Shown here: positions 37,858 to 59,699 of the stretch, one piece after another
Position numbering within the stretch: position 1 is the stretch's first letter
Layout: each line of letters begins with the position of its first letter
Assembly (NCBI GenBank): GCA_030427985.1
Contig: JAUIBH010000009.1
Span: 1 to 64,000, forward strand
DNA length: 64,000 nucleotides
From: Bacteroidia bacterium
GTDB lineage: Bacteria; Bacteroidota; Bacteroidia; Flavobacteriales; Flavobacteriaceae
Reading direction: 5' to 3'
The notes under the pieces: generated by a model
What the model saw: the letters and a program-made list of their open reading frames with translations, nothing else
The model's database searches: none
Told to the model about the DNA's origin: nothing
Made by a program: the position numbers and the translations under genes

Positions 37858-38552
37858 TGACACAGGCAGATATCAAAGTTATTATCCCCGCAATAAATGA
37901 AGGAGATTCCATCGGAAAAGTGGTCTCTGAAATCCCCAAACACGTTTCCGAAATTATTGTGGTGGACAACGGCTCTACCGACAATACCATGGAAAATGCC
38001 AAAAAAGCGGGTGCTACTGTACTCACCGAAACCCGCACCGGATATGGGTCCGCATGCTTGCGTGGAATAAATTATATAGGGCAACAATCCAAAGAGCCAG
38101 ACGTTATCGTATTTATTGATGGAGACTACTCGGATTATCCAGAAGAACTGGATAAAGTAGTCGCCCCAATCTTGGAGAATGACATAGATTTTGTGGTCGG
38201 AGCGCGAAAAAAGGCGCTCAGGGAACCCGGTTCCATGACTCCACAGCAGGTTTTTGGCAACAAATTGGCCACTTTTTTAATGAAAATCCTGTTTGGAGCA
38301 AGATTTACGGATTTGGGACCTTTTAGGGCCATAAAATATGAAAAACTCAAAAAATTGGAGATGCAGGACACGACTTATGGATGGACAGTGGAAATGCAGC
38401 TCAAAGTACTGAGGAAAAACATGTCATATACCGAAATACCAGTGCGTTATAAACGAAGAATTGGTGTTTCAAAAGTGTCAGGTACGGTAAAAGGTACTAT
38501 ATTTGCTGGCATGAAAATTTTGGGTTGGATTTTTAAATACAGTTTAAAATAA
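37857..38552 (+). CDS. GT2 glycosyltransferase, DPM/DPG-synthase-like
   Basis: A 231-residue GT-A enzyme: KVIIPAINEGDSIGKVV, IIVVDNGSTDNTMENA, FIDGDYSDYPEEL (DxD) and FTDLGPFRAIKYE, the last diagnostic for polyprenyl-phosphate mannose/glucose synthase-like bacterial proteins. No membrane domain. It probably charges a lipid carrier for the membrane glycosyltransferases that follow. Overlaps the previous stop by one base and ends one base before the next gene. Confidence 0.87.
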   Translation: MTQADIKVIIPAINEGDSIGKVVSEIPKHVSEIIVVDNGSTDNTMENAKKAGATVLTETRTGYGSACLRGINYIGQQSKEPDVIVFIDGDYSDYPEELDKVVAPILENDIDFVVGARKKALREPGSMTPQQVFGNKLATFLMKILFGARFTDLGPFRAIKYEKLKKLEMQDTTYGWTVEMQLKVLRKNMSYTEIPVRYKRRIGVSKVSGTVKGTIFAGMKILGWIFKYSLK

Positions 38553-38553
38553 T

Positions 38554-40038
38554 ATGGGACTCACAATTGCTCTTATCATTGTCGCTATTTATAGTACAGC
38601 CTTAATTTTGATCTTCTTCTACAGTCTTGCCCAATTAAATCTGTTGATCAATTACCTAGGTTATAAAAAGCGAAATGAGGAAGCACCCAAATTCAACCTC
38701 TTAGATCCCAAGGAAATACCATTTGTTACCATACAACTTCCCATTTACAACGAGGAGTACGTTATGGAGCGTTTGTTGGATAACATTGCCAAGATTGAAT
38801 ACCCTAAAAGTAAACTGGAAATTCAGGTTTTGGACGATTCCACCGATGACTCTGTCATAGAAACCGCTAAACGTATTGAAGAGCTCAAAAAAGAAGGGCT
38901 GGACATTCAACATATCCGAAGGGAAAACAGAAAAGGGTTCAAAGCAGGAGCTCTTAAAGAAGGGCTTGCTATTGCCAAAGGTGATTTCATCGCCATTTTT
39001 GATGCCGACTTCCTTCCCGAAACAGATTGGCTTAAAAAGACCGTTCCCTATTTTAAGGATGAAGAAATTGGTGTGGTACAGACCCGCTGGGGACACATTA
39101 ACCGCGATTATTCTACCCTCACCCGTATCCAAGCGTTTGCTTTGGACGCCCACTTTACTTTAGAACAGGTAGGCCGAAATTCAAAAGGACATTTCATCAA
39201 CTTCAACGGTACCGCTGGTATCTGGAGAAAAGAATGCATCTTGGACGCTGGGAACTGGGAAGGCGATACCTTGACAGAGGATTTGGATCTCAGCTATCGT
39301 GCCCAATTGAAAAACTGGAAGTTCAAATATTTGGAAGATGTGGAAACCCCTGCTGAATTGCCCGTGGTAATCAGTGCGGCACGTTCACAACAATTCCGTT
39401 GGAACAAAGGTGGTGCCGAAAACTTTAGAAAAACGGTTTGGAGCGTTATCACAGCCAAGAATATTCCACTGAAAACCAAATTCCATGGCGTAATGCACCT
39501 TTTGAACAGTTCCATGTTCCTTTGCGTGTTCATTGTAGCCTTGTTGAGCATTCCCATGCTCTACATTAAAAACACCTATGGCCATTTGGGATGGGTGTTT
39601 GAGGTGACCAGCTTTTTCATCATAAGTACCATTATCCTGTTCATTTGCTATTGGTTCACCTATAAAAGCATTCAGGGAAGCAGTTTTGACAACTTTGTGG
39701 ACTACATCAAACTCTTCTTTACCTTCTTTTCAGTGGCACTCGGATTTTCCTTGCACAACACCGTGGCTGTTTTGGAGGGCCATTTGGGCAAGCGAAGCGA
39801 ATTTGTTCGGACCCCAAAGTTCAACATTAACAGCATTAAAGATACCTGGAAAGGCAACAAATATTTGGCGAAGAAACTTTCACCGAATATGATTTTGGAG
39901 TTTGCCTTGATGATCTATTTCCTTTTTGGAATGTACAGTGCCGTTCCTTTGAATGACTACGGATTGTTCCCATTCCATTTGATGTTATTTCTTGGTTTCG
40001 GCTTTGTTTTCTTTAAATCACTTACCTCCAAGGCCTAA
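38554..40038 (+). CDS. Cellulose-synthase-like processive GT2 glycosyltransferase
   Basis: A 494-residue membrane GT2 protein: one N-terminal helix, the catalytic domain with D,D,D,QxxRW (VLDDSTDD, IFDADFLPE, LTEDLDLSYR, SQQFRWNKGG), then about four C-terminal helices. This is the core architecture of polysaccharide synthases. No BcsB/PilZ partner is nearby, so the polymer is unlikely to be classical cellulose; a glucan or mannan is possible. Confidence 0.9.
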   Translation: MGLTIALIIVAIYSTALILIFFYSLAQLNLLINYLGYKKRNEEAPKFNLLDPKEIPFVTIQLPIYNEEYVMERLLDNIAKIEYPKSKLEIQVLDDSTDDSVIETAKRIEELKKEGLDIQHIRRENRKGFKAGALKEGLAIAKGDFIAIFDADFLPETDWLKKTVPYFKDEEIGVVQTRWGHINRDYSTLTRIQAFALDAHFTLEQVGRNSKGHFINFNGTAGIWRKECILDAGNWEGDTLTEDLDLSYRAQLKNWKFKYLEDVETPAELPVVISAARSQQFRWNKGGAENFRKTVWSVITAKNIPLKTKFHGVMHLLNSSMFLCVFIVALLSIPMLYIKNTYGHLGWVFEVTSFFIISTIILFICYWFTYKSIQGSSFDNFVDYIKLFFTFFSVALGFSLHNTVAVLEGHLGKRSEFVRTPKFNINSIKDTWKGNKYLAKKLSPNMILEFALMIYFLFGMYSAVPLNDYGLFPFHLMLFLGFGFVFFKSLTSKA

Positions 40039-50778: not shown

Positions 50779-50814
50779 AAACCCATCTTTCTTTTCCAGA
50801 AATTCATCAATTCA

Positions 50815-50926
50815 CAGGGCATATCTATCCATTTGGTCTTGATGTTATCCATAAAAAATCCGACCTTCACGTATCGGTCGATATAATTCATTTAAAAACG
50901 AATCATATCTTAAGACGTTGTAGGCA
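50815..50926 (+). promoter_or_regulatory. Cassette leader, copy 1 (before the PIN-membrane gene)
   Basis: Repeated leader: GGGCATA word, then TAAAAAATCCGACCTTCACG, the intact CACGTATCGGT (50868-50878), CGATATAATTC, AAACGAATCATATCTTAAG and the end core ACGTTGTAGGCA (50915-50926). Related copies precede the genes at 53180, 57878 and 59268. CACGTATCGGT is the exact inverse of ACCGATACGTG at 51898-51908 beyond the gene. Confidence 0.7.
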
Positions 50927-50935
50927 ATTTTAGAG

Positions 50936-51790
50936 ATGAACTATATTTTAGACACAAACATCATTATTCGATATCCAGAATTACTGGGAAAATCATTTGA
51001 TGGAGTAAAGTTTTATATATCAGAAAGAGTATTAGAAGAACTAAACATTGCCAATGCTCAAGCTTTGCGTAACGTTATTGAAAATCGTGACAACTCAAAT
51101 TTTATTCTTCAAGGAAAAGAAGAGATTTCCAGAATGGGAATTCAAACAAGACCAGGTCAAACTTTAAGAATTCCAGATTTTCAAATATTGAACTATGCTA
51201 AATACATAACTGAATTAAAAGGTAATTCTACATATCTAGTAACGGACGACAGAACGATGCGAATTAACGCGAATGAAAATGGAGTTAATTCCATTTCGTT
51301 AAAAGAGCTGAAAGAAAGACTGCCTGAAGAATCTGAAGAATCAAATACTGCAAAAAAGAAAGTTGACGAAATAAAATCATCGAATAATAAAAGGTTAATA
51401 CTTGGTTTTATTTCAGGTGTAGTTGTTACATTAATTGGCTTTTTTGCGTATTCACAAATCGAACTGATTGTAGAAACTATAAATATTTGGGGAACAATTT
51501 TATTGATATTCATTTCTGGAATTGCGTTATTTATCTTTAGAGAAAAACAAAGACTAGCTTATGGAATAGCAGAACTATTAGCTGGTTTATTAGCAGTAAT
51601 CTTATTATTCCCATCCGACTTTGAGTATTCAACAATTGATTTCAATCTAAATTTTGGATTAAAAATCTTCGCTTCCTTGTATATAATGGTTCGAGGTCAA
51701 GACAATATTATCAAATCAATATCAGGAACTAAACTTGGCGGAATGATTGAAAATAAATTGGGTAGAAAAACTGCCTACAACAATGTATAA
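50936..51790 (+). CDS. PIN-domain protein with C-terminal membrane domain (cassette gene)
   Basis: A 284-residue protein. Residues 1-130 form a PIN ribonuclease-like domain: MNYILDTNIIIRYPEL (catalytic Asp6), acidic RVLEELNIANA and STYLVTDDRTMRINA. A charged linker (EESEESNTAKKKVDE) leads to about four transmembrane helices (~152-175, 183-202, 208-228 and ~238-255). No antitoxin is next to it. It is the sole gene of a cassette: the core GTTGTAGGCA lies 9 bases before the ATG, and its stop falls inside the downstream hairpin. Membrane-bound nuclease is inferred; a TA toxin is less likely without a partner. Confidence 0.8.
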   Translation: MNYILDTNIIIRYPELLGKSFDGVKFYISERVLEELNIANAQALRNVIENRDNSNFILQGKEEISRMGIQTRPGQTLRIPDFQILNYAKYITELKGNSTYLVTDDRTMRINANENGVNSISLKELKERLPEESEESNTAKKKVDEIKSSNNKRLILGFISGVVVTLIGFFAYSQIELIVETINIWGTILLIFISGIALFIFREKQRLAYGIAELLAGLLAVILLFPSDFEYSTIDFNLNFGLKIFASLYIMVRGQDNIIKSISGTKLGGMIENKLGRKTAYNNV

Positions 51791-51908
51791 CCGCAATTAC
51801 GGTAGATGGTTAGTCAAATGAAACTTCCTACGAAAATTACTAACTTGTCAATCTGATAAAAACAAAACCGAAAAAACCGCAACTGCGGTTATACGGTACC
51901 GATACGTG
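51772..51908 (+). repeat. attC-like 3' site of the PIN cassette
   Basis: Starts with TGCCTACAAC (51772-51781), the exact inverse of GTTGTAGGCA at 50917-50926 before the gene. Then AAT, then a 19-nt arm (51785-51803) pairing with 51876-51894 at 17 of 19 positions (outer 11, GTATAACCGCA / TGCGGTTATAC, perfect). It ends GGT-ACCGATACGTG. Both mismatches are A-C on this strand, i.e. T-G wobbles on the other strand. Structure resembles an integron attC site with an asymmetric internal loop (3 versus 11 nt). Confidence 0.65.
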
Positions 51909-52130
51909 CCATTTCAAAACCCCTTCTTTTTTTAATCTTTCAGTTCCTCACAAAAAATCACCTAAGCTCTTGCCCAAAATTGTATCTTGAGCCCTAAACG
52001 CTTTAGTGGTTTCTTTATGCAACAACGAATTGTTACCTCCCTTCTAGCTTTTGCCTTGGTTTGTCTTTACGGAAATGCCCAAGATCAATATCCCAAAAAT
52101 GAAAACCTAGTTGAGCAAAACAATATGCTT
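51898..52130 (+). repeat. Duplicated 5' region of the M1 peptidase gene, copy 1
   Basis: About 230 bases matching 54107-54338 at roughly 88-90%: it begins at ACCGATACGTGCCATTTC, covers the upstream region of the M1 aminopeptidase gene and the first ~35 codons, then homology ends. The intact copy lies downstream of the DUF4304 cassette. Confidence 0.85.
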
Positions 52131-52226
52131 AGATGGTATCAAATAGAAAATGGAAAAGGTGCTAAACTTATGAAAATATGCTTTCTATCTAGAATGACGG
52201 AAAACATATTCCATAAACCCATATAG
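52017..52226 (+). pseudogene. Truncated copy of the M1 aminopeptidase gene
   Basis: The first ~33 residues (MQQRIVTSLLAFALVCLYGN, then AQDQYPKNEN) match the N-terminus and signal peptide of the aminopeptidase at 54226. After that the frame runs into unrelated residues and stops after 69 codons. No catalytic domain, so a remnant left by insertion or recombination, not a functional gene. Confidence 0.8.
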
Positions 52227-52285
52227 CCCATCCGTCAATTCCGCCTTATTCTAAAGGTGAAATTTATCGAATTTCATTCCCAATA

Positions 52286-52322
52286 CTGAACCTGTATCCT
52301 GTTCAGGAGAGCTTGTTTCAGT
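52286..52322. repeat. Small palindromic repeat
   Basis: CTGAACctgtatcctGTTCAG followed by GAGCTTGTTTCAGTA. The words CTGAAC and TTGTTTCAG recur in the insert at 53040-53082. Part of the short-repeat family scattered in this accessory region; the rest of 52131-52357 shows no gene. Confidence 0.5.
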
Positions 52323-52378
52323 AGCTAAAAATTGAAACAGCATTATGTCAAACCCTTATGCTAACAAACCTTCAAGGG

Positions 52379-52984
52379 ATGGGATTGGAATCATATCTAT
52401 TTTACGTAAAATTTGATGAAGAGGTTTCAGAACTGGAACTCGACCAACTTCTCATTTCCATTGGACTCAATCCAGTGAAAAAAGTTGGCAAAAAATTATC
52501 TGATTTTAGAAGCTACTATTACGAATTAATTACAGAAAAAGGAATCACAGAGGCGCATTGTCTTTTTTCACCAGACAACAAAATGGGGGAAAGTTTTTAT
52601 CTGAGGTTTTCAATATGTAGTCCGGTAGAGGTTATTGATCAGACCTTTATGTTGTTGGACAATTTGAACAGCAAGCAGTCAATCAGGGTTAAAGACACGG
52701 AAATTTACAATCATTATTGTAGACGTGAACGGCAAGAAGGAAAGGTTGATGCCAGTTTTAAAGGGTTGACAAAATCAGAAAATCAAATCTTACACGATAA
52801 AAGCTATATCTCGATTGACCCAAATGAATTCAAAAAAAACAAATTGGGAATAATGAAAAGAAATGTGCTCCTACAAGATGATGGTAATAAAGCAATTGTT
52901 CGTGGCGACTCAGAGACATTTCTTTATTTAGAAAAAAAGAGTCTAATTCAAAAGTTTATGGGATGGATTACCAAAGAGTTATAA
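52379..52984 (+). CDS. Hypothetical accessory protein
   Basis: A 201-residue soluble protein of unknown family (MGLESYLFYVKFDEEV start; DFRSYYYELITEKG, ESFYLRFSICSPVEVIDQTF, RGDSETFLYLEKKSLIQKF). Mixed alpha/beta. ATG 52379 is preferred; ATG 52358 would add seven residues. It lies between the truncated and intact M1 peptidase copies, so it arrived with the insertion. A role as an immunity-type protein is possible from size and setting but is not supported by any motif. Confidence 0.7.
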   Translation: MGLESYLFYVKFDEEVSELELDQLLISIGLNPVKKVGKKLSDFRSYYYELITEKGITEAHCLFSPDNKMGESFYLRFSICSPVEVIDQTFMLLDNLNSKQSIRVKDTEIYNHYCRRERQEGKVDASFKGLTKSENQILHDKSYISIDPNEFKKNKLGIMKRNVLLQDDGNKAIVRGDSETFLYLEKKSLIQKFMGWITKEL

Positions 52985-53160
52985 AAGCTGTTATATTGAT
53001 TTGAGCTGGATTTTGAGCTTAAAAAATCCGACCTTCACGCTTGTCTGCCGACAGGCAGGTACCTGTGCTGAACTTGTTTCAGTATCGGTTGATATAATTC
53101 ACTTTGTACTGAGCGAAGTCGAAGTATTAAAACGAATCATATCTTTAAACGTTGTACACC
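52985..53160 (+). promoter_or_regulatory. Cassette leader, copy 2 (before the DUF4304 gene)
   Basis: Same order as copy 1: TAAAAAATCCGACCTTCACG, TATCGGTTGATATAATTC, AAACGAATCATATCTTTAA and the core ACGTTGTACACC. The CACGTATCGGT word is split between CACG (53036-53039) and TATCGGT (53083-53089) by 43 bases of palindromic sequence. A second short insert holds CTGAGCGAAGTCGAAG. TATCTTTA resembles a -7 promoter box. Confidence 0.7.
53040..53082. repeat. Palindromic repeat inserted into the cassette leader
   Basis: TGTCTGCCGACAGGCAGGTACCTGTGC-type palindrome followed by CTGAACTTGTTTCAG, exactly between the two halves of CACGTATCGGT. Related units: 57802-57831 and 59190-59212 at the same place of the other leaders. 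Confidence 0.7.
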
Positions 53161-53179
53161 ATAAAAGACAGACCTGCAA

Positions 53180-53908
53180 ATGACGACACAGGAGTTTAGA
53201 AAGCAAATTGGAAAATATCTCGGAACTAAGATTCGTGAATTCGGATTTAAAGGCTCTGGATTCAATTATATAATGGACTCTGAAAGTTTTGTTTTTACAA
53301 TTGGTTTGCAAGCAAATAGATATGGTGGAAGTTTTTGTGTTGAGTTAGGAGTTCACCCGAAAGAAATAACAAACAACGGATTTGAGGATTTAGATTTTAA
53401 TAAGCTTAAGTACTATAATTGCGAATTTAGGACAAGATTAGCGAAAGAAGGTAAAGGTGATAAGTGGTGGAATTATACTGATTCAGAATCAAAAAACTTT
53501 GAAATCATAGATGATGTAATTCTTTATATTTCAAAATATGCTTTACCAATAATAAATGGATTCAAAAATGATACTGTATTATTGGAAAAGGTTAAAATAT
53601 CCGACATAAAGAATCGATTTATACCTATACCAGACTTTAAAGGTGGATTAACACCTATGACAACTGATATCAGATTGGCTTGGGCTTTAGCAGTGATTGT
53701 TGAAAAATCTAATCCTAAAAAATCATTGGAATTTGCTAAATATGCATTGAAGCATGACAAATCTCCAAGTACATTTTTTGGTACAAAGGATTTGAAAAGG
53801 ATAATTGAATCTTATCAGGACAGTTTCGAGAAAGATTTGCTGATAAAAGAAATGGACAATGATAAACCAAGTTTTTGGACAAAGATTACGGATAGATTTA
53901 AGAAATAG
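53180..53908 (+). CDS. DUF4304 domain protein (cassette gene)
   Basis: A 242-residue cytoplasmic protein. Residues ~1-130 fit DUF4304: FRKQIGKYLGTKIREFGFKG, FVFTIGLQANRYGGSFCVEL, FRTRLAKEG. A C-terminal helical part (RLAWALAVIVEKSNPKKSLE) is TPR-like. Function of DUF4304 is unknown. Only gene of its cassette: core GTTGTACACC precedes the ATG by 19 bases and its exact inverse follows the stop by 9 bases. Confidence 0.8.
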   Translation: MTTQEFRKQIGKYLGTKIREFGFKGSGFNYIMDSESFVFTIGLQANRYGGSFCVELGVHPKEITNNGFEDLDFNKLKYYNCEFRTRLAKEGKGDKWWNYTDSESKNFEIIDDVILYISKYALPIINGFKNDTVLLEKVKISDIKNRFIPIPDFKGGLTPMTTDIRLAWALAVIVEKSNPKKSLEFAKYALKHDKSPSTFFGTKDLKRIIESYQDSFEKDLLIKEMDNDKPSFWTKITDRFKK

Positions 53909-53917
53909 TTTAATTAC

Positions 53918-54117
53918 GGTGTACAACAATGTATAAAAAACATAAGTGGATCAGTGGTTTACGAAACTTTGGCGCATTTAATCAGCTCCGCCAAATCTGC
54001 GATTTGACGGGTTGTTTTAAAACTTTAAGTTTGTGTCAAAACGCAAATTTGGCTCAGTGCAACTTGACAGGTAAGAGCTTCGAAATCACTTACGTTTCTT
54101 ATACTAACCGATACGTG
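53918..54117 (+). repeat. attC-like 3' site of the DUF4304 cassette
   Basis: GGTGTACAAC (53918-53927) is the exact inverse of GTTGTACACC at 53151-53160. It is followed by AAT, an 18-nt arm (53931-53948) pairing with 54087-54104 at 16 of 18 positions, then TA-ACCGATACGTG (54107-54117). Same order and same 3 versus 10-nt internal loop as the PIN cassette site, but with different arm sequence. Both mismatches are A-C here, so T-G wobbles on the opposite strand. The loop (~138 nt) holds no gene; the 71-codon frame crossing it is not credible. Confidence 0.65.
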
Positions 54118-54225
54118 CCATTTCAAAATCCCTTCTCTTTTTAATCTTTCAGTTCCTCACAAAAAATCACCAAAGCTCTTACCCAAAATTGTATCTTGAG
54201 CCCTAAACGCTTTAGTGGTTTATTT

Positions 54226-55812
54226 ATGCAACAACGAATTGTAACCTTCCTTCTGGCCTTTATCTTGGTTTGTCTTTACACAAATGCCCAAGATCAATAT
54301 CCCAAAAACGAAAATGTAGACGTGCAACACTATGTGTTTGGCCTTTCCTTAACGGATGCCTCCAACGAAATTCAGGGTGAAACCCAAGTGACCGTCTCCT
54401 TCAAAGAAAAAGCCGTACCGTTTGCATTGGATTTGGTTGCCAAATCAGGAGGTTTTGGCATGGAAGTCACCGAGGTTATCGAGGACAGCCTCCAAGCAGA
54501 CTATACCTATACCGAAAACAAAATCAATATCGTTCCAAAGACAGAGGCCAAAACACAAACGTTCGTGGTAAAGTATCATGGTATTCCCGAAAGAGGTCTG
54601 GTCATCGATACCACCAAATTTGGAAAACGTTCCTTTTTTGGAGACAACTGGCCCAATTTGGCGCGGCATTGGCTTGCCTCGGTAGACCACCCATATGATA
54701 AGGCGAGCGTGGAATTTCAAATTACGGCTCCAGACCACTACGATGTGGTTGCGACTGGTGAAAAGATAGAAGAGAGTAACCTTGAAAACGGCTACAAACT
54801 CACCATTTACCACGAACCGGCTCCTGTTGCTACCAAGGTCATGACCATCGGTGTCACCGAATTTGCAAGTCGCTTGGTAGATGAAGTACAGGACATTCCC
54901 GTTACCGCTTGGGTATATCCACAAAACAGATTAGAGGGGTTTCATGATTATACTGTGGCTGGAAAAGTATTGGAATATTTCATCAATACCATTGGCCCGT
55001 ACTCTTATGCTAAACTGGCCAATATGCAGGCCAAAACCCAATGGGGCGGACTGGAAAATGCCGGGACCATCGCCTATTTTGAAAATTCAGTCACTGGAAA
55101 TAATGAGGTTGAACCTTTGATTGCCCATGAAATCGCCCACCAGTGGTTTGGTAATTCCGCCACGGAGAAAAGCTGGAACCACGTGTGGCTGAGTGAGGGC
55201 TTTGCTACCTATTTCTGTATCCTGTACTTGGAAAACGTGTACGGCGATGACCGCAGAAAAGAAGAATTGGCCATAGATCGAAGGGAAATCATTTCATATT
55301 ACAAAACCAACCCTTCCCCCATTGTGGATTTGACCATTACCGACCCCATGCGGGTGCTCAGCACTAATACCTACCAAAAAGGAGGCTGGGTGTTGAACAT
55401 GCTCCGCCATAAATTGGGCGATGACGTATTTTGGAAAGGCATTCGAAAATATTATGTCACTTATCGGAACAGTAACGCGCTAACTGATGATTTTCGGCTG
55501 GTAATGGAAGAAGTCTCAGGTAAAAACTTGGAGGGCTTTTTTCAGCAGTGGTTGTTCGTAAAAGGGCATCCGGAACTCAAATGGAATTGGGAATATAAAA
55601 AAGGGAAGGTTATGTTGAATTTGGAGCAAATGCAATCGCATCATGTGTTTCAATTTCCGCTGGAAATTGGTCTGGTCAAAGACGGAAAAACCGCTATTGA
55701 AACCATTCAAATGAAAGAGCGTTCCGGTAGCTTTGAACTCAATTCAAAAACACGCCCAGATCGCGTGATTTTAGACCCCAACCAATGGATTTTGTTTGAG
55801 GACATGAACTAG
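54226..55812 (+). CDS. M1-family aminopeptidase, exported
   Basis: A 528-residue zinc aminopeptidase with signal peptide (VTFLLAFILVCLYTNAQ). Substrate loop WGGLENAGTIAY (GxMEN equivalent) and zinc site HEIAHQWFGN with His301, Glu302, His305 and Glu324 in WLSEGFAT. A short beta-rich C-terminal part; shorter than the ~850 aa PepN because the large C-terminal domain is missing, as in many Bacteroidetes M1 proteins. ATG 54226 is chosen over TTG 54196. Its 5' region is duplicated at 51898-52130. Confidence 0.92.
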   Translation: MQQRIVTFLLAFILVCLYTNAQDQYPKNENVDVQHYVFGLSLTDASNEIQGETQVTVSFKEKAVPFALDLVAKSGGFGMEVTEVIEDSLQADYTYTENKINIVPKTEAKTQTFVVKYHGIPERGLVIDTTKFGKRSFFGDNWPNLARHWLASVDHPYDKASVEFQITAPDHYDVVATGEKIEESNLENGYKLTIYHEPAPVATKVMTIGVTEFASRLVDEVQDIPVTAWVYPQNRLEGFHDYTVAGKVLEYFINTIGPYSYAKLANMQAKTQWGGLENAGTIAYFENSVTGNNEVEPLIAHEIAHQWFGNSATEKSWNHVWLSEGFATYFCILYLENVYGDDRRKEELAIDRREIISYYKTNPSPIVDLTITDPMRVLSTNTYQKGGWVLNMLRHKLGDDVFWKGIRKYYVTYRNSNALTDDFRLVMEEVSGKNLEGFFQQWLFVKGHPELKWNWEYKKGKVMLNLEQMQSHHVFQFPLEIGLVKDGKTAIETIQMKERSGSFELNSKTRPDRVILDPNQWILFEDMN

Positions 55813-59124: not shown

Positions 59125-59259
59125 TGTCAACTCAAATGGGGCACACGTCAATTGTATCTAGATTTTGACTTTAAAAAAGATGAACTTCATGCCCGCCTGT
59201 TGGACGGGCAGGTAACCGAAGTATTAAAACGGATTCAAATCTTTTAACGTTTTAGCTAA
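59125..59259 (+). promoter_or_regulatory. Cassette leader, copy 3 (before the 92-aa gene)
   Basis: TGTCAACTCAAATGGGGCACAC, TCAATTGTATCTAGATT, then palindrome GCCCGcctgttggaCGGGC (59191-59209), GAAGTATTAAAACGGATTC, AAATCTTTTA and core ACGTTTTAGCTAA. Same module order as the other leaders. Confidence 0.65.
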
Positions 59260-59267
59260 TTTGAAAA

Positions 59268-59546
59268 ATGAAACCGAATCTTGAAGAATATAAAGACCGA
59301 CTCTTCGAAATCCTGTTGAGCAATAATCATCAGGACGGTTTTCTTAATCTAATTGAAAACCTATGTTTTCGAGGTCACACAAAAATAGACATATATGACC
59401 TCTTTCACGACTTTCATATGGAAATTCAAGTTGACATTAGAACAAAAGAAAATGAGGGACTCTATGACCGTCTAAGCGAATTCATGGATGGATTTACATC
59501 TTGGGGAAAAAATTTCAAGGTTCTACCAAACGAACCTGATTTATGA
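59268..59546 (+). CDS. Hypothetical acidic protein (cassette gene)
   Basis: A 92-residue acidic, mostly helical protein (MKPNLEEYKDRLFEILLSNN; IDIYDLFHDFHMEIQVDIRT; LYDRLSEFMDGFTSW). No family recognised; size and charge suit a small immunity or antitoxin-like protein, but no partner gene is present. It follows the leader core by 8 bases and is followed by an attC-like hairpin. Confidence 0.7.
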   Translation: MKPNLEEYKDRLFEILLSNNHQDGFLNLIENLCFRGHTKIDIYDLFHDFHMEIQVDIRTKENEGLYDRLSEFMDGFTSWGKNFKVLPNEPDL

Positions 59547-59580
59547 CTATAACTTAATCAGAATCAAACTTAAGATGGCT

Positions 59581-59699
59581 ATAAGTAATTGCTTGTTCTC
59601 GCCTACTTCTGAAAATCCTCTCGGATTTTCAGTTTGGTGTGTACTTGCAAAGTTTAGTGCTAACTCACGCAACTACTCATAAGCCGATACCGATACGTG
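59581..59699 (+). repeat. attC-like 3' site of the 92-aa cassette (partial)
   Basis: Arms ATAAGTAATTGC (59581-59592) and GCAACTACTCAT (59669-59680) pair at 10 of 12 positions, with both mismatches A-C on this strand (T-G on the other). The site ends ACCGATACGTG (59689-59699), the same end as the two better sites. An exact inverse of the 5' core (GTTTTAGCTA) was not found, so the outer pair has decayed or differs. The 64-codon frame crossing it is not a credible gene. Confidence 0.5.

Follow-up and report, generated by a model that had tools for sequence, protein, structure and literature searches.

Three cassette-like units in one stretch of DNA

The window, the whole 64,000-nucleotide stretch of Flavobacteriaceae DNA that was analysed, carries behind argH a gene for a PIN-domain protein with hydrophobic stretches in its C-terminal half (read by eye), whose 3' end runs into a long imperfect hairpin. 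The gene is preceded by a 10-nt core, GTTGTAGGCA, of which an exact inverse, TGCCTACAAC, opens an attC-like site at the gene end; this site continues with the spacer AAT, two hairpin arms of 19 nt (51785-51803 and 51876-51894, 89% complementary) and the spacer GGTACC. On its sequence, the PIN-membrane gene is a single-gene cassette of the integron type, composed of a start core, a reading frame, a gene-specific inverse core and a bulged hairpin (attC). The PIN protein has a weak match to the CARF-PIN model of PADLOC (E 2.1e-4). The features of the locus are collected in Table 1.

A second unit of the same anatomy with a different core lies 2.2 kb downstream, in which the inverse pair GTTGTACACC (53151-53160) and GGTGTACAAC (53918-53927) encloses a DUF4304 gene (PF14137, 53180-53908) and is followed by AAT, a long hairpin (53931-54104) and the spacer TAACC. 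The third unit is decayed; it retains a reading frame of 92 aa (59268-59546) and an attC-like site (59570-59692) that has lost its inverse core. No integrase adjoins any of the three. The hairpins that receive the first two units (at 50868 and 53021) are copies that arose from a duplication which also took the 5' end of the M1 aminopeptidase gene, and they hold different cassettes. Between these two units lie the shortened copy of the aminopeptidase start (51987-52226) and a 208-aa reading frame (52358-52984). Pfam has no match for the 208-aa frame or for the 79-aa frame at 51987-52226, PADLOC has none for the DUF4304 protein or the 92-aa and 208-aa frames, and Rfam returns over 50800-54200 three matches which are all far under their gathering scores.

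Table 1. Positions of the cassettes and landing sites in the window
Feature	Position	Strand	Basis or remark
Landing site 1, left part	50868-50916	+	repeated before different cassettes in the same genome and the genus; empty copies exist
Gene cassette 1, including the G of both junctions	50917-51901	+	both ends from comparison of filled and empty sites
Start core (R' box) of cassette 1, GTTGTAGGCA	50917-50926	+	exact inverse at 51772-51781
Reading frame of cassette 1, 284 aa, PIN domain PF13638	50936-51790	+	Pfam, E 1e-13
attC-like site of cassette 1	51772-51900	+	covariance model R1, 51772-51904, E 7.3e-11
Landing site 1, right arm GATACGTG	51901-51908	+	ACCGATACGTG of the initial annotation starts at 51898
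Right flank with 5' end of the M1 aminopeptidase gene	51898-52130	+	second copy at 54107-54339 (90%)
Landing site 2, left part	53021-53150	+	two inserts, 53040-53081 and about 53105-53128
Gene cassette 2	53151-54110	+	R1, 53918-54113, E 4.3e-6
Landing site 2, right arm GATACGTG	54110-54117	+	sequence reading
Cassette 3 (decayed), start GTTTTAGCTA	59249-59692	+	R1, E 5.2e-13
Landing site 3, right arm GATACGTG	59692-59699	+	sequence reading

Inverse core pairs

The initial annotation had named two pairs of inverted strings around the PIN gene, the core pair and an outer pair, CACGTATCGGT (50868-50878) and ACCGATACGTG (51898-51908). Re-reading of the window sequence finds all four strings where they had been placed, and each pair is exactly inverse. 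By itself, the core pair does not exceed what chance gives in a single window on either strand: an exact inverse 150-2000 nt downstream is found for 5 of 449 GTTR-type 10-mers on the forward strand, two of these five being cassettes 1 and 2, and for 5 of 453 on the reverse strand. The pair carries weight because it is combined with a hairpin and a landing site and because the arrangement is replicated elsewhere. Among the matches listed by a pattern search of other genomes (described below), an exact 10-nt inverse of the core occurs within 3 kb upstream in 95 of 155 sites; where at least 700 nt of upstream sequence are available the figure is 89 of 136, the exact inverse being absent in the other 47, against 1.4% (332 of 23,576 comparisons) when the cores are swapped between sites. 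The inverted cores of the initial annotation are in this sense a property of other copies as well. The cores keep only GTTR and YAAC while their other positions are free but complementary; the strict GTTRRRY and RYYYAAC forms are not kept, in agreement with the earlier remark that the core comes near to this consensus without equalling it.

The landing hairpin

The two outer strings have proved to be part of the receiving DNA. The left part of landing site 1 consists of the outer arm CACGTATC(GGT), an inner hairpin formed by GATATAATTC (50880-50889) and GAATCATATC (50900-50909), and a spacer TTAAGAC that runs up to the junction; it matches the attC model R1 weakly (50866-50920, E 0.031). The genome from which the window is taken has five well-kept units, two in the window and three at unrelated places, one each on the contigs C147 (L004), C23 (L037, core GTTGGCATTA/TAATGCCAAC, with a protein that looks RDD-like by eye) and C154 (L042, whose core is GTTGTGCATA/TATGCACAAC and whose hairpin differs). 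All five are preceded by versions of the same stretch of about 50 nt, comprising CACGTATCGGT, the hairpin GATATAATTC..GAATCATATC and the spacer, in some cases with inserts, and are followed by GATA[AC]GTG. The two inserts of landing site 2 are REP-like repeats, a type recognised by eye, and similar inserts are present in the inner loop at L037 and L042.

The landing site is a dispersed repeat, which a composite query finds in 46 of 60 genomes of the genus, the window's own included. Copies from 37 loci were taken, of which 26 could be parsed into 21 filled, four empty and one ambiguous site. In the filled copies GTT (in two cases GTC) directly follows the spacer, while the empty ones run from the spacer into GATA: L207 (GATAAAAGTG), L212 (GATAAGTG), L223 (GATAAGTG, where the inner stem has changed in a compensating way) and L043 (GATACATG), the last of them from the window's own genome. 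The right end could be read in 11 of the 21 filled copies, ten of which end in ..ACC|GATA[AC]GTG and one (L208) in ..ACT|GATACGTG; one more match (L234), the twelfth, disagrees with these ends and is taken for chance. Since filled and empty copies share these junctions, CACGTATC.. and ..GATACGTG form the arms of the landing site and lie outside the cassette, which extends from 50917/50918 to 51900/51901. The outer pair of the initial annotation therefore stands as a pair of exact inverses but does not belong to the mobile unit. Its proposal that the unit circularises at ACG|T is replaced by the junctions ..TTAAGAC-G|TTGTAGG.. on the left and ..GGTACC-G|ATACGTG.. on the right, the existence of empty landing sites having led to the rejection of a unit bounded at ACG|T.

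The comparison of related strains for presence and absence, which had been suggested as a check, was made behind argH, where 260 nt 3' of the gene were read by eye in 30 genomes of the genus. In nine of these the sequence runs straight into the aminopeptidase gene with no unit, in 11 it begins like a landing site, and the remaining ten have neither arrangement within the 260 nt. Three of the 11 (G000, which is the window's genome, G074 and G072) have a cassette that is complete, its 10-nt core being exact and the right arm present, and the core differs from one genome to the next; the other eight are decayed, cut or ambiguous. One further genome feature concerns the flanks: in G011 the 3' end of argH occurs again, incomplete and containing one stop, about 6.4 kb downstream of the first (G011:C27, 219312-219716 and 226122-226472), beside another landing site (match at 226556), and duplication of the end of a host gene may thus recur at this locus.

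The cassette family and its attC fold

A search of 59 genomes with a degenerate motif gave 31 matches in 22 genomes, with the spacer AAT in 19 of the 31, against 30 for the reversed pattern; as the raw count is no better than this control, no count is built on it. A longer exact pattern is far more specific and occurs in at least 119 stretches of named genomes, the matches listed being by their titles from Flavobacteriaceae, except for one Lewinellaceae record and a few called only Bacteroidia or Bacteroidetes. Among these listed matches, 155 distinct cassette-site instances were analysed. A right hairpin arm is found in 141, the spacer behind it is readable in 131 of those (GAGACC in 95), and in 128 of the 131 it is followed by GTTG (91) or GTTA (37), the start of the next cassette. 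Cassettes in other genomes are thus arranged in head-to-tail arrays, an arrangement that is absent from the window, and the array cassettes are of the same kind but without the arms of the landing site. In Saonia flava (L147) two different cassettes lie between near-identical flanks. A heuristic count of 614 cassettes, which includes false positives (the wrong pair was picked for L049), is not used as evidence.

The cassettes end 3' in a bulged, covarying hairpin of the attC type. For the alignment, 65 diverse sites were selected by two features, an inverse core (no more than one mismatch) and an outer (L) stem of 6 bp, so that this outer stem is not independent evidence. RNAalifold predicts 14 pairs for the 65 sequences, 11 of them with changes on both sides. 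The inner helix (columns 22-30/121-131), which was no picking criterion, is paired in 91.7% of the cells, against 20-45% when slid, and its covariation is 0.673 against 0.146 when shuffled. Unpaired columns (26, 125, 127-128 and 132) interrupt the stem as they do in attC sites, and the alignment as a whole shows the features by which an attC fold is recognised, namely a stem containing R and L boxes along with bases that are unpaired or extra. The covariance model R1, the kind of search that had been recommended for the hairpin, matches all 60 genus genomes at E <= 1e-3; the window's own genome is matched at nine places. In the phylum, 78 of 198 genomes have a match at E <= 1e-5, the other 120 having none at that threshold. 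One weak R1 match on the minus strand of the window's genome (G000:C135:48172-48286, L278, E 2e-5) has no cassette that could be read around it.

Recombinases and attI-like sites at array starts

In relatives the arrays begin at an attI-like site beside the gene of a tyrosine recombinase, which lies either on the same strand with the array downstream of it (375-395 aa; L045, L049, L084, L142) or divergently (272-287 aa; L051, L055). With this, the comparison of the PIN unit to an integron cassette made in the initial annotation is supported: cores co-vary gene by gene, cassettes stand head to tail, and the arrays of related genomes start in the manner just described. Of 64 recombinase loci 60 could be parsed, and a complete cassette was defined by an inverse core with at most one mismatch, a stem and a CG end, starting within about 520 nt. 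Such a cassette is present at 33 of the 60 loci, 23 times downstream and ten times divergently, and absent at 27; when the four loci chosen for a cassette noticed there beforehand are left out, 29 of 56 remain. In the two control directions, for which the flanks were long enough at 57 and 54 loci, complete cassettes are found at three and none, respectively. The same or a near-identical attI is followed by different first cassettes in three pairs of loci (L242/L243, L254/L255 and L264/L265), just as different cassettes occupy copies of the landing site.

Of 199 Flavobacteriaceae genomes, all from different genera, 124 encode the longer kind of recombinase at E <= 1e-40 (among the good genomes, 112 of 164), mostly with one match per genome; 29 of its best 30 loci could be parsed and 13 have a complete cassette. 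Within the genus, 30 of 60 genomes encode a recombinase of one kind or the other at E <= 1e-50. The window's genome has none at either E <= 1e-40 or 1e-50, and the units of the window are probably left-over insertions or rely on an integrase copy missing from the assembly, which is 88.9% complete. Its contig C88 carries an attI-like sequence (L279, 808-855) that resembles the one of the platform in G011 and leads into a first cassette. The core of this cassette is GTTAGCTGCA/AGCAGCTAAC, with one mismatch, and its protein has a PADLOC match (E 1.5e-178) to PDC-S20, a candidate defence family. The reading frame upstream of this attI-like site has no recombinase motif discernible by eye, and no integrase is seen adjoining the site and its cassette (G000:C88, 808-2436 of L279).

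Outside the family, insert-less recombinases occur on contigs that also have R1 matches (L339-L343). Phage and plasmid collections were searched in part, with one integrase as the query. Two mobilizable plasmids with common neighbouring genes, NZ_CP092416 of Flagellimonas marinaquae (L346) and pSMS7 of Arenibacter algicola (L347), encode an integrase of the short kind; on NZ_CP092416 two R1 matches flank a gene of the dihydrofolate reductase family, and an annotated erm(F) adjoins the integrase.

Relationship of the recombinases to IntI and Xer

The array recombinases are related to integron integrases and, as judged from their alignments, lack the IntI-specific insert (the I2 region). Five of them score 192-219 bits with TIGR02249, in two pieces, against a cut-off of 265; in the genus search these pieces cover model positions of about 2-180 and 239-315 and skip about 180-238, and chain residues 180-246 of IntI4 (2a3v) stay unaligned. 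Scores below the cut-off also occur in all 14 control genomes. The distance between the first catalytic arginine motif and HxLRH is 91-92 residues in 66 of 67 array-type recombinases (32 of 33 and 34 of 34, one being unparsed), which were fetched with two queries or from the vicinity of R1 matches, compared with 96-98 in six proteins of the Xer type; among 20 canonical IntI from the phylum it is 133 in 18, the other two being unparsed. A quick maximum-likelihood tree, for which 75 of 93 rows were used (L182, L257 and L324 gave no protein), places the insert-less proteins in one clade (SH-aLRT 92) next to IntI (99), with Xer as the root (99); a warning given by the program is that the long branches of IntI and of Xer meet, and the labels A and B denote only the query with which a protein was fetched. 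On this tree the insert-less recombinases form a sister clade to IntI, apart from Xer.

The absence of an intI gene from the window, already noted in the initial annotation, extends to the genus, as none of its 60 genomes has a canonical IntI above the TIGR02249 cut-off. In the phylum 57 of 198 genomes do, and a cross-count of the lists finds such an IntI in 19 of the 78 R1-positive genomes; 26 of the 78 belong to the window's class, and none of these has one. Among the genomes of other families that have an insert-less recombinase, G315, G330, G342 and G429 encode a canonical IntI too. The five recombinases are not assigned to XerC or XerD either, their scores with TIGR02224 and TIGR02225 (175.5-198.3 bits) lying under the cut-offs of 335.15 and 329.6. 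With NF040815 (XerA) they reach 206-234 bits, three above and two below the cut-off of 220; the description of this model reads 'site-specific tyrosine recombinase/integron integrase', its name has also been given to such genes in two plasmid records, and the label is a designation that carries no weight as a test.

A proposed second kind of integron and its alternatives

The PIN unit is best explained, and in our view probably correctly, as a cassette of a non-canonical, I2-less integron that would have entered a secondary, attC-shaped landing hairpin in trans; these cassettes may then belong to an overlooked kind of integron. A cassette would be excised as a circle in which the two cores pair to form the base of a folded, single-stranded attC, the recombinase would cleave at G|TT (in cassette 1 after 50917), and the circle would be inserted at attI or, off target, in the landing hairpin at C-G|ATA[AC]GTG. 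The enzyme would most likely be the insert-less recombinase found beside the arrays of the genus and family, acting in trans. We infer the excision, the single-stranded state, the identity of the enzyme and the point of cleavage from comparison of sequences.

The broader proposal, which we favour with some reserve, is that Bacteroidota possess integrons of a second kind, widespread in Flavobacteriaceae, whose I2-less tyrosine recombinase would capture and shuffle cassettes through folded single-stranded attC sites, and for which the dispersed, attC-shaped G|AT repeat would be a genome-wide landing pad for single cassettes. If this is true, either the I2 helix is dispensable for attC recombination or the clade retains the state before IntI gained it, and the arrays that start at attI-like sites beside I2-less recombinases would make the origin of integron integrases directly testable. 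The recombinase in 124 of 199 Flavobacteriaceae genomes would also point to an added pool of cassettes, complete ones being present at 13 of the 29 parsed among its best 30 loci. The accessible text of PMC7790495 describes the I2 helix as the innovation that enabled integrons, as required to capture cassettes and as absent from every other protein; by this account the helix provides the docking of the bases of attC that are extra-helical and impedes the second exchange of strands. Because the missing helix is described as necessary, the insert-less enzymes may be unable to capture cassettes.

There is a different account, in which the units are ordinary integron cassettes whose canonical, I2-bearing IntI is located elsewhere or has come and gone, and in which the adjoining insert-less recombinase is not the cassette enzyme. 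It is consistent with the IntI found over the cut-off in the phylum, including 19 R1-positive genomes, and with a phage whose sites match R1 and whose attC, in the available text of PMC9892861, is usable by IntI1. We nevertheless consider it unlikely, as it leaves without explanation the absence of such an IntI from all 60 genus genomes and from every R1-positive genome of the class, and the position of the insert-less enzyme, which sits at the starts of the arrays. Much less probable still is that the host XerC/XerD moves the cassettes through folded single-stranded sites. A precedent exists in the CTX phage, for which recombination of a folded ssDNA site by XerC only is known (PMC7790495, in the portion available), and Xer-type proteins are encoded by the four genus genomes that supplied controls for the tree; the array-side recombinase forms a clade separate from these very proteins.

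Hardly any credence is left for a terminator or a REP- or MITE-like repeat with coincidental inverse cores, varied by homologous recombination between the flanks, which could draw on the chance-level core pair of a single window, the dispersal of the landing site (46 of 60 genus genomes) and the duplicated flank but fails on the gene-specific inverse cores (89 of 136), the phasing of the arrays and the cassettes beside recombinases. A transposon-like element comprising the unit and the landing-site arms (with the ACG|T boundary) is equally implausible, for although these arms are exact inverses and recur with the unit at several genomic places, the empty sites (L207, L212, L223, L043) keep both parts of the landing site with no cassette and the same kind of cassette is found in arrays that have no such arms.

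Comparison with known systems

The arrays resemble sedentary chromosomal integrons in that an integrase, either co-oriented or divergent, is located at the array start with an attI-like site between it and head-to-tail cassettes, and in that their attC sites have paired end cores and an interrupted stem. They differ in an integrase that has no IntI-specific insert and falls outside the IntI clade, and in cores of the form GTTR/YAAC that do not strictly follow GTTRRRY/RYYYAAC. The three units of the window are like CALINs or lone attC sites in having no integrase nearby, but unlike CALINs they comprise one cassette apiece, inserted in copies of a single recurrent landing hairpin; the phage study counted CALINs from two attC upward (PMC9892861, as far as its available text goes). 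With archaeal XerA and bacterial XerC and XerD the enzymes share the recombinase family and, for XerA, the scores given above, from which the separate clade of the six Xer-type controls and their spacing of 96-98 residues (91-92 in the array recombinases) set them apart.

Secondary integration sites of IntI1 have a GWT-type consensus. Sites of an attG type are named in PMC12901181. Insertion into the landing hairpin would likewise take place outside attI and at G|AT, with the difference that the target is a recurrent, folded repeat of the genus that is filled with different cassettes.

Earlier work has recorded integrons in the phylum (PMC8618304 and PMC2426708, in their accessible portions), and for Bacteroidetes proper IntegronFinder 2.0 is reported to have found integrase-only elements and one complete integron, in Salinibacter (PMC9024848, likewise). 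One survey kept only matches with the IntI-specific domain (PMC2426708, in the same portion), and surveys restricted in this way are expected to miss insert-less integrons. In the literature searched, from which preprints and most subscription journals were excluded and of which the sources were available in part, no earlier description was found of integrons with such integrases or of cassette arrays in Flavobacteriaceae.

A hint at function comes from the Polaribacter phage P12002L, in which R1 finds four sites within 38,029-39,710 (best E 2.3e-13, 68.9 bits). The attC sites of this phage are reported as a CALIN in a lytic phage, and the available text of that report names no integrase of the insert-less kind (PMC9892861). 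According to the same text, IntI1 carried out recombination between attI1 and the bottom strand of P12002L_attC2, which is presumably one of the R1 sites, and the junction was the correct G|TT; the top strand gave no recombinants and P12002L attC1 failed. The four sites (L345) lie around a methyltransferase gene and small genes, and two of them are only about 62-64 nt long.
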